A DNA stretch of 64,000 nt from positions 1 to 64,000 of the forward strand of contig JAGVOT010000111.1 in the NCBI GenBank assembly GCA_020052615.1, given 5' to 3'. Shown one piece after another: positions 58,220 through 64,000 of the stretch; position 1 is the first letter of the stretch; each line of letters begins with the position of its first letter. The position numbers and the translations under genes are program-made. The DNA is from Nitrospirota bacterium. GTDB taxonomy: Bacteria > Nitrospirota > UBA9217. The notes beneath the pieces are model-generated. The model did no database searches and had not been told where the DNA came from. It saw nothing but the letters and a program-made list of their open reading frames with translations.

Positions 58220-58462
58220 ATGGAGATCAAGATATTAGGTCCCGGCAGTCTCAATGACCAGAAGATGGAGGAAATGGTCAAGGTCGCCGTCAAAGAGCTC
58301 GGCGTCGAAGCGACGCTGGTGAAGATCTCGGACATCGGGGAGATCGTCAGGTACGGCATCGTTGCCACTCCGGGGCTCATCGTGAACGGGAAGGTAAAAC
58401 ATTCCGGCAAGACGGTCCCGGACATGGACCGGATCAAGGACCTCATAAAGAGCGAGCTGTAG
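58220..58462 (+). CDS. small thioredoxin-like protein lacking the CxxC motif
   Basis: MEIKILGPGSLNDQKMEEMVKVAVKELGVEATLVKISDIGEIVRYGIVATPGLIVNGKVKHSGKTVPDMDRIKDLIKSEL; fold pattern of MTH895/TM0996-like redox proteins (usually GPGCxxC) but GPGSLND here. Confidence 0.82.
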   Translation: MEIKILGPGSLNDQKMEEMVKVAVKELGVEATLVKISDIGEIVRYGIVATPGLIVNGKVKHSGKTVPDMDRIKDLIKSEL

Positions 58463-58538: not shown

Positions 58539-58964
58539 ATGCTGAAGGTGATGTTCCTTTGTACGGGGAATTCCTGCCGAAGCCAGATGGCGGAAGGGTT
58601 CGCACGGACGCTCGGCCAGGGCCTCATTGAAGCGCGCAGCGCAGGACTGATGGCGGCAGGCGTCAACCTGCGGGCCGTCGCGGTCATGTTGGAGGCGGGG
58701 ATCGATATTTCCGGCCAACGGTCCCGGGAGATCGATCCGGACCTGCTTAAGTCGATGGATGTCGTGATCACCCTCTGCGACAATGCCGCGGAAGCCTGTC
58801 CTGTCACACCGCCCTCCATAAAACGGCTCCATTGGCCTGTCAAGGACCCGGTCCGGGCCGTCGGCACCAATGAGGAGATCATGAACGAATTCCGACGGGC
58901 ACGGGATGAGATCGGGGAAAAGATCGAAAAATTCATAGCAGAGATCAAGGCAAAGGGAAAATGA
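58539..58964 (+). CDS. arsC: arsenate reductase ArsC, thioredoxin-coupled (LMW-PTP fold)
   Basis: MFLCTGNSCRSQMAEGFAR; VVITLCDNAAEACP resolving cysteines; HWPVKDP. Confidence 0.9.
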   Translation: MLKVMFLCTGNSCRSQMAEGFARTLGQGLIEARSAGLMAAGVNLRAVAVMLEAGIDISGQRSREIDPDLLKSMDVVITLCDNAAEACPVTPPSIKRLHWPVKDPVRAVGTNEEIMNEFRRARDEIGEKIEKFIAEIKAKGK

Positions 58965-59304: not shown

Positions 59305-59610
59305 ATGGTAAGTATTACTGACGGAGCGGTAACGAAGTTCAAGGAAGTGGTCACCCAGCAGGGTACTGCCGGCGACGGGGTGCGGATATTCCTCGTCCCC
59401 GGCGGCTGAAGCCCCTCTCTGGCTATGGACGTAGCCAAAGCCGCCCAGGCGGGCGACACGACCTTTGAAAAGAACGGTCTGAAGGTATTTCTCGAGGACC
59501 GGGCGAACCAGATGCTGGCGACCACGACCATCGATTTCGCCGAGGGACAGGGTTTCGTCCTCTCCGGCATGCAGAAGGAAAGCTCTTCCTGCGGATCCTG
59601 CAGCTGCTGA
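59305..59610 (+). CDS. HesB/IscA-like selenoprotein (Sec encoded by in-frame TGA at 59407-59409)
   Basis: MVSITDGAVTKFKEVVTQQGTAGDGVRIFLVPGG-U-SPSLAMDVAKAAQAGDTTFEKNGLKVFLEDRANQMLATTTIDFAEGQGFVLSGMQKESSSCGSCSC*; frame preserved across TGA; TGA sits where HesB/IscA proteins carry Cys (GGC). Confidence 0.88.
59402..59444 (+). promoter_or_regulatory. bacterial SECIS-like hairpin overlapping/after the UGA codon
   Basis: gcggc-TGA-agcccctctc-tggcta-tggacg-tagcca-aa-gccgc: perfect 6-bp apical stem 10 nt after UGA, loop with GG, lower GCGGC/GCCGC pairing. Confidence 0.75.
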
Positions 59611-61583: not shown

Positions 61584-62958
61584 ACAACGTTCAGGACATC
61601 GTGGACAGAAATAATGCTCACGTCATCGTGGACTCGATACTCTGAAACCGCGATGTCGTGATAGAAGCTCGGCAGATCATCGCAGTTGATACTTGTATTC
61701 TTCGACCTGGATCGTATCCAGGAAAAGCTTTAGCTTTTGTTCTTTGACATCGATAGTAGCCACAACGTATTCGTACTGAGTCTGCGGTGGAGCAGAGAAC
61801 ATTTCTCCGAAGATGTTCAGACGGCAGTCATTTCGGATAAATCTGACGAGATGATAGTGTTCATCTTCCGGCTTCGCCAAGGGATGCTTAGGAGCATCGC
61901 TCTTACTCGGAAATACCAATTTTATATTCTTCTCGGCTAATGCCGTAAGAGGTGTCTTGCCTTTGATCTTGCTGTAGCGATAGGTGCTGTTATGCCGATA
62001 TTCAAATGCCAGAGATTCCCTTCGAAGCTGCGGTACTGATGCCATGGTGATTTTATCGAGAAACTTTTGCCGGTAATGATCGTTGAACTTTTCGACAATC
62101 CCGTTTCGCCATGGTTCGGAAGGCGGAATGAACCAGAGTTTGACTCCGTAGGCCAGGCAGAGACGAATAAGCGGCCCCATGCCTCGGGGATGGGTTGGGC
62201 TCCCGTAAAAGGAGAAATCATTGTCCACCTGCAGGTTCTCCGGGATACCCATGCACATCCAGATCGCATAAACAGCGCTTAAAACGCTTTGCGCTGCCCG
62301 GGAAGTAATCGGCTCAATGCCGCATCTGTTGATCGACGTATCGACGGCATGCAGGCTGTAGAACTTTATCGGGCCGGTAAGGTAGCAAGGGCCGACCATA
62401 TCTATCTGCTGTGTCTGATTAGGCAACAGCGTCGGGAGTTCGGGATATTTCTTGCCTTTTGGTGCATAGCGTCCTGTTCTCCGGTGGGTCAATTCCCGGC
62501 GCCGTAGGATACGGCCGATCGTGCTGAGCGAGGGAACCGGCTGGACCTCCATGTCAATCAGTTTCCATTGGATGGCCTGATTGCCACAGAAGAGGTCATT
62601 GTTATATAGGTCCAGCCTCACCAGCTCTACGATCTTCTCTATCTCAACGGGTGTACGATAAGGGCTGGATAATGGTCGCCGAGATTGATCTTCAAGCCAT
62701 GCCGGATCATCCGGGGTATACCGAGCTGACCATTTGTACAGCCATGAACGAGAACAACCGAGAGATGCACAAATCTCATCCGGATCTTCTCCTTCATGGA
62801 ACCGCTGCACCGCTTTCAATCGCTTCTGCTTTTTCATGAACACCTCCTCTTCGGTTAGGTGTTCATAATACGTTGATGTTGCGGCTATTCGATTGTCAAA
62901 GAGCTTTTGTCCACGATGTCGTGAACCGAAAAAGTATCCACGATGTCCTGAACGTTAT
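61584..62958. mobile_element. complete insertion sequence (~1375 bp) with TIRs and 10-bp TSD
   Basis: TIRs acaacgttcaggacatcgtgga / ataacgttcaggacatcgtgga (revcomp of right end); flanking direct repeat catctagttg at 61574-61583 and 62959-62968. Confidence 0.9.
61677..62843 (-). CDS. DDE integrase-core transposase (IS481/IS3-superfamily-like)
   Basis: HTH AVQRFHEGEDPDEICASLGCSRSWLYKW; catalytic-core-like blocks QIDMVGP, LQVDND, EPWRNGIVEKFN. Confidence 0.88.
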   Translation of the reverse strand: MFMKKQKRLKAVQRFHEGEDPDEICASLGCSRSWLYKWSARYTPDDPAWLEDQSRRPLSSPYRTPVEIEKIVELVRLDLYNNDLFCGNQAIQWKLIDMEVQPVPSLSTIGRILRRRELTHRRTGRYAPKGKKYPELPTLLPNQTQQIDMVGPCYLTGPIKFYSLHAVDTSINRCGIEPITSRAAQSVLSAVYAIWMCMGIPENLQVDNDFSFYGSPTHPRGMGPLIRLCLAYGVKLWFIPPSEPWRNGIVEKFNDHYRQKFLDKITMASVPQLRRESLAFEYRHNSTYRYSKIKGKTPLTALAEKNIKLVFPSKSDAPKHPLAKPEDEHYHLVRFIRNDCRLNIFGEMFSAPPQTQYEYVVATIDVKEQKLKLFLDTIQVEEYKYQLR

Positions 62959-63090: not shown

Positions 63091-64000
63091 TTACACCCCG
63101 CCTTTTTCCAGCGGTATTTTCCTCGTTATTTTGTGCCAGGTAATGCCGCTGTCCCTTTCGCCGAAGGGCATGTACATGAGCTCGATGTCGACGGTCATCT
63201 CATGATCGAGAATGTTCGTGACGCTCTTGCCGTCCTTTTTAACATATTCGGCGGGATAAGGAATCTCGAAATCCTCATGCACGGGCTTGTTCGGCGGCAG
63301 GCCGTTGTCGCGGATGATGCCGCTCTTTTCGTAGGGTCCGCGGCCCATCTTGTCGCCGCGGCCGAGCTGCTGGGGAATGGGCATGTAGATACGGGTATGC
63401 TTCGCTATCTGATTACCTTTTGAATCTTTCGCGGTCACTTCCAGGACCAGCCGGTTGGGGGTTGGTCAGCCGTCAGGGATGGAGTGGCCGGCGCGATTGA
63501 TCATCTCGATCTTGACGAGAGCCTGGGGCATCATTTTCGCTCCGTCGCGCCAGATGTAGCCGAGGGTCTCGACCTTGAAGTCCACGGCGCTTTTGCCCAT
63601 GTTAAGGTCGTTGTAGCTCTGCATGTTGTGGCCGAGCTTGCTCTTCTTCATGTGGCATTCCTGGCAGCTTTCCTGGCCGCCCTCGGCGCGGTAGGCCCAG
63701 AGGTAGCTCCCGTAGAGCGTTCCGCACTGCGACGGGTTCTCCAGCTCGAAGTTCGGGCCGAGGCCATGGCACTGTCCGCAAAGGATGGATTCGGACATGA
63801 TGGGGCTCTTCTTCATGACCGGATGGCTGGGGTCCGGATGGCTGCCTTCCTTCGATCCGAAGACCTCGTTCTTCTGCGGGAATCCGTCCACCCACTTGTG
63901 GGTGATCGCGTTCCGCTGGTGGCAGACGAGGCAGTTGATGTTGACCTTCGTCAGTTGCTGTTCCGCTTTATTTCTCGCGTCATCGCTTGACTTGGGGTCC
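63091..64000 (-). CDS. multihaem c-type cytochrome with in-frame TGA (63466-63468), putative selenoprotein; 5' end beyond window edge
   Basis: Reverse-strand frame open from 64000: ...CLVCHQRNAITHKWVDGFPQ...CGQCHGLGP...CQECHMKKSKLGHNM...AGHSIPDG-U-PTPNRLVLEVTAKDSKGNQIAKHTRIYMPIPQQLG...IPLEKGGV*; both track ORFs (63466-63891 and 63091-63438) are in the same frame. Confidence 0.82.

Follow-up and report, generated by a model that had tools for sequence, protein, structure and literature searches.

The ExtKL family of multihaem c-type cytochromes was predicted in 2007 to be a selenoprotein family from two Geobacter sulfurreducens genes, GSU2937 and GSU2936, at which time neither a SECIS element nor homologs lacking selenocysteine (Sec) were reported for it (PMC1914089). 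It is listed among selenoproteins in a 2026 review (PMC13188914), and NCBIfam holds a model for it (NF040886, “multiheme c-type cytochrome (seleno)protein ExtKL”), with a curated cut-off of 250 bits. A structurally solved relative has been deposited in the PDB as “Multiheme cytochrome c selenoprotein (MccSep)” (entries 9WT8, 9WT9, 9WTA, 9WTB, and 9WTC), with a U325A mutant sequence among entries 9WT9 and 9WTC; a literature search on these entries and on cytochrome c selenoproteins returned no relevant paper. G. sulfurreducens lacking ExtI is impaired in reducing selenite and tellurite, and the authors of that work named ExtKL as a candidate selenoprotein in the reduction of selenite (PMC5877670). 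The extHIJKL genes also help this organism to reduce Fe(III) and Mn(IV), and their deletion lowers the reduction of Fe(III) citrate to 66% (PMC6148476). In syntrophic Seep-SRB2, an ExtKL homolog is highly expressed (PMC10553843).

In the current study, we analyzed a 64,000-nt stretch of DNA (the window) from a Nitrospirota genome assembled in 135 contigs. A first-pass annotation of this sequence had described, at its far end, a minus-strand frame open from the window edge through three CxxCH motifs to an in-frame TGA, followed by plausible protein down to position 63091 and, 17 nt past the TGA, by a small hairpin. All of these lie exactly where they had been placed, and the features that we recognize are as follows.

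63091..64000, minus strand: 3′ part of the extKL-like selenoprotein gene, an open frame with the TGA read through (NF040886, 569.6 bits)
63919..63933, minus strand: CLVCH, third haem motif, its Cys and His unchanged in all 54 aligned homologs
63766..63780, minus strand: CGQCH, fourth haem motif, Cys and His positions invariant
63724..63726, minus strand: Cys227, an invariant Cys outside the haem motifs (54 of 54), possibly a partner of Sec
63652..63666, minus strand: CQECH, fifth haem motif, Cys and His positions invariant
63484..63486, minus strand: His307 of GHxIPDGU, candidate distal haem ligand, invariant in 54 of 54 and aligned with the His of HxMPTG in cytochrome c552 (5ZE8)
63466..63468, minus strand: in-frame UGA, Sec313, matching in alignments Sec325 of PDB 9wt8 and the UGA or Cys of homologs
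63433..63448, minus strand: SECIS-like hairpin GGUC-CUGGAAGU-GACC, 17 nt past the UGA, its stem present in 38 of the 43 distinct Sec sequences and in none of 5 non-Sec genes
63094..63465, minus strand: C-terminal beta domain, the 124 codons past the UGA, conserved among homologs and modeled by AlphaFold as beta-rich with high pLDDT

The missing 5′ end was recovered by extending the contig (C8) to its end at position 64908, which adds 404 bases of the gene, two further CxxCH motifs (making five in the full-length product), and an ATG at contig position 64404 with AGGAGG 5′ of it. The complete frame thus comprises 437 codons (64404 to 63091, minus strand) and crosses the window edge; it contains a single TGA (63468-63466), after which 124 sense codons lead to a TAA at 63093-63091. 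The predicted product carries an N-terminal hydrophobic stretch, MRVARTAAVMALLALPLLMPLPGQAASA, which by eye resembles an export signal. An Rfam scan of the window at gathering thresholds gave no match.

The full-length product matches NF040886 with 569.6 bits over residues 9 to 432 (E value of 3e-171) and has the features by which members of the family are recognized, namely, the profile score, five CxxCH motifs, and a Sec or Cys in GHxIPDG[U/C]; location in an extHIJ-KL-MNOPQS cluster, which is a common context but not strictly defining, is the one feature that it does not share. Membership in the octahaem tetrathionate reductase family was considered and rejected, as the score there, 17 bits, falls far below the cut-off of 375. 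Like ExtKL of G. sulfurreducens, the Nitrospirota protein has five CxxCH motifs, the GHxIPDGU-PTPNR motif with UGA at the same codon, a comparable length, and the C-terminal domain. Its match to MccSep is nearly full length (E value of about 1e-177), and the residue encoded by the UGA falls opposite an X (nonstandard) in the wild-type chain and opposite the A of the U325A mutant, such that Sec325 of MccSep corresponds to Sec313 here; nevertheless, the window protein is a clearly diverged, distinct sequence within the same family. The gene is, then, a new Nitrospirota member of an already catalogued and structurally solved family. The first-pass annotation was correct in recognizing a selenoprotein multihaem cytochrome, as is borne out by the NF040886 match, the alignment with Sec325, the exchange of Sec for Cys among homologs, the Sec machinery of the genome, and a family-wide SECIS-like hairpin. 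However, it rated the novelty of such a protein too highly, given the NCBIfam model, the 2007 prediction, and the PDB entries with their U325A mutant.

When homologs from several phyla were aligned at GHSIPDG[C/U]P, 53 of 54 had Sec or Cys at the position of codon 313. The single exception, a Val, occurs in a divergent tandem copy (locus L042) whose second copy carries Cys, and it is the only homolog that runs against the expectation of a Sec or Cys at this site. Among 52 sequences with distinct stretches following the codon, 47 had TGA, 4 had Cys, and 1 had Val, and conservation among the homologs does not drop across the UGA. A scan of GTDB species genomes returned 34 loci, the closest being from a Nitrospiria bacterium (94% identity). 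Within the Nitrospirota, 82 of 296 sampled genomes contained a match to NF040886 over the cut-off; among the 102 matches listed, 84 had a TGA (its position being checked directly in the fetched loci) and 18 had no internal stop, and all 18 of the latter carried Cys at the position of codon 313. A tree built from 74 proteins requires four changes between Sec and Cys, at least three of which are forced by starred branches. Judging from this tree, the two forms have been interchanged at least three times. Geobacteraceae sequences are placed among those of the Nitrospirota, although several branches are long and the fine placement is unsure.

The hairpin behind the UGA (63448-63433) had been proposed to be compatible with a SECIS. 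At the level of the family, this holds up well; taken alone, the hairpin of the window gene is weak. Against recodings that preserve the protein and are drawn from the gene's own codon usage, it gave a P value of 0.205, and we therefore rejected it as independent proof of Sec. Stem and spacing agree with the SECIS criteria, the loop starts with a G only when the inner CU/AG pairs are formed, and the minimum free energy of the surrounding 51 nt, −7.2 kcal/mol, narrowly misses the published bacterial SECIS limit of −7.5 (PMC13188914). Under a relaxed criterion (a stem of at least 4 pairs, a loop of 4 to 9 nt, and a G within loop positions 1 to 3), a hairpin score of at least 10 was reached by 46 of 47 Sec genes versus none of 5 non-Sec genes, and the Sec genes averaged 13.8, where 6.3 was expected. 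Of 43 distinct Sec sequences, 38 retain all four pairs of the exact stem, while 2,000 shuffles averaged 32.8 with a maximum of 37, and the fourth pair of the stem, formed by third codon positions, shows compensatory changes (C-G, G-C, and U-A). In our reading of the Geobacteraceae sequences, the hairpin lies in a different register, CCGAC-UGGUUCU-GUCGG. The SECIS-like hairpin thus exceeds coding chance in the family though not in the window gene alone, and since the counts ignore relatedness, they are supportive and do not amount to a formal test.

The genome that carries the gene also encodes SelA and SelB as well as two candidate tRNA-Sec genes with anticodon UCA, both called by Rfam and by ARAGORN, so that the Sec machinery, whose absence would have spoken against the first-pass annotation, is present. 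The two tRNA genes (L006, 1497-1595; L007, 1500-1594) are very different from one another, the latter having a lower score and a strongly divergent sequence. Across genomes, SelB over the cut-off was found in 43 of the 47 with a Sec form (two of the remaining four have a SelB truncated at a contig end), in 9 of 10 with only Cys forms, and in none of 9 Nitrospirota genomes lacking a family member over the cut-off. SelB therefore accompanies the Sec form, though its presence alone does not identify that form; presumably, in genomes with Cys forms it serves other selenoproteins.

In this light, window gene extKL is almost certainly a genuine Sec form whose UGA is read as Sec, a judgment drawn from sequence comparison. 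It is very improbable that the UGA is a true stop separating adjacent genes, extK for a cytochrome and extL for a beta domain. The original G. sulfurreducens annotation did list GSU2937 and GSU2936 separately, and the 2007 study, having found no SECIS, had to allow for a conserved operon (PMC1914089), but homologs that carry Cys at this codon have one uninterrupted frame, conservation is steady across it, and the solved MccSep chain is a single polypeptide. That the UGA stems from a sequencing error, marks a pseudogene, or is read through as an ordinary amino acid is barely conceivable; while an assembly in 135 contigs might invite such a suspicion, the same TGA recurs in dozens of independent genomes from several phyla, the frame is intact on both sides of it, and SelA, SelB, and tRNA-Sec are all encoded.

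In the confident AlphaFold model of the protein (mean pLDDT of 89.9), the haem part is helical and gives way to a beta domain whose start precedes the UGA. In Foldseek, the library of which ends in April 2026 and does not list 9WT8 among the matches, the model best matches the fold of pentahaem cytochrome c552 from Thermochromatium tepidum (PDB 5ZE8). This protein likewise has five haems, and its HxMPTG motif aligns with GHxIPDG; however, identity is 18%, the TM score is 0.55, and 5ZE8 has Ala at the Sec position. Outside the haem motifs, His64, His259, His307, and Cys227 are invariant in the 54 aligned homologs, and Sec313 follows His307 by six residues. We infer that His307 is probably a distal haem ligand and that Sec would lie near a haem. 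Under the mechanism that we propose, UGA codon 313 would be decoded as Sec by SelB and tRNA-Sec, aided by the hairpin 17 nt downstream, and the product would be exported as a presumably periplasmic pentahaem cytochrome c. Electrons may then be taken up via its haems, and the loop that holds Sec, past the probable ligand His307, may form a redox-active or substrate-binding site.

Whereas the Geobacteraceae gene lies within extHIJKLMNOPQS, and Geomobilimonas has the classical order ExtH, ExtI, small ORFs, ExtKL, multihaem cytochromes, a Rieske protein, and cytochrome b, the Nitrospirota gene stands alone. A small unrelated ORF lies upstream, a transposase and then SufD/SufC-like genes lie downstream, and no ext genes adjoin it. 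The transposase is IS481-like (61677-62843, minus strand) and sits between extKL and the SufCD-like genes; the close relative L023 has the same Suf neighbors without it. Homologs of ExtH and ExtI are encoded on another contig (C39, 9542-12488, minus strand) with no extKL adjoining, and a search of the genome for ExtM with a single Geobacteraceae protein as the query gave no match, which is weak evidence of absence. The genome does contain a second NF040886 paralog with a UGA, on contig C16 (9612-10781, minus strand), with the motif GHRIPDGULWS; its relatives include Sec forms from Desulfobulbaceae as well as Cys forms from other members of the Nitrospirota.

Elsewhere in the window, a HesB/IscA-like selenoprotein ORF (59305-59610, plus strand) has an in-frame TGA at 59407-59409 (FLVPGGU) and scores 45 bits against NF038090, below the cut-off of 85; presumably, this is the other putative selenoprotein that the first-pass annotation had counted within 4 kb. 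At 58220-58459 (plus strand) is an ORF for an ArsE/MTH895-type thioredoxin-like protein in which the expected N-terminal Cys motif reads GPGSLND, with no Cys, and an arsenate reductase-like gene (58539-58964) adjoins it.

By analogy with the ExtI phenotype in G. sulfurreducens, we tentatively suggest that the substrate may be chalcogen oxyanions (selenite or tellurite) or related sulfur species. The functional link to selenite and tellurite is weakened by the separation of extKL from extHI in this genome. Another possibility, to be taken seriously if short of probable, is that the protein serves in general electron transfer to metals rather than in chalcogen reduction, with Sec only tuning or protecting the haem site. 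The part played by extHIJKL in Fe(III) and Mn(IV) reduction, the high expression of the Seep-SRB2 homolog, and the stand-alone position of the gene speak for such a role, and the lowered Fe(III) citrate reduction after extHIJKL deletion is compatible with a general electron conduit. Set against these are the selenite and tellurite phenotype of the ExtI mutant and the strict conservation of Sec or Cys, which points to chalcogen chemistry over a simple electron relay. An unlikely though more specific version of the chalcogen reading is that, outside the Geobacteraceae, the protein would be a Sec enzyme working on its own, with Sec313 and the invariant Cys227 paired for redox chemistry next to a pentacoordinate haem and with the C8 and C16 paralogs differing in their chalcogen or sulfur substrates.

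The two doubts dating from 2007, over the SECIS and the non-Sec homologs, are met here by a SECIS-like hairpin and by Cys homologs in the ExtKL family, which is widespread in the Nitrospirota, the majority of its members there having an internal TGA. Given that Sec and Cys versions occur naturally, with both in some genomes, what Sec does in a haem protein is directly testable. Should the proposed Sec313-Cys227 pair and the different substrates of the two paralogs prove to be true, the Nitrospirota would harbor a widespread, uncharacterized class of Sec-haem reductases.
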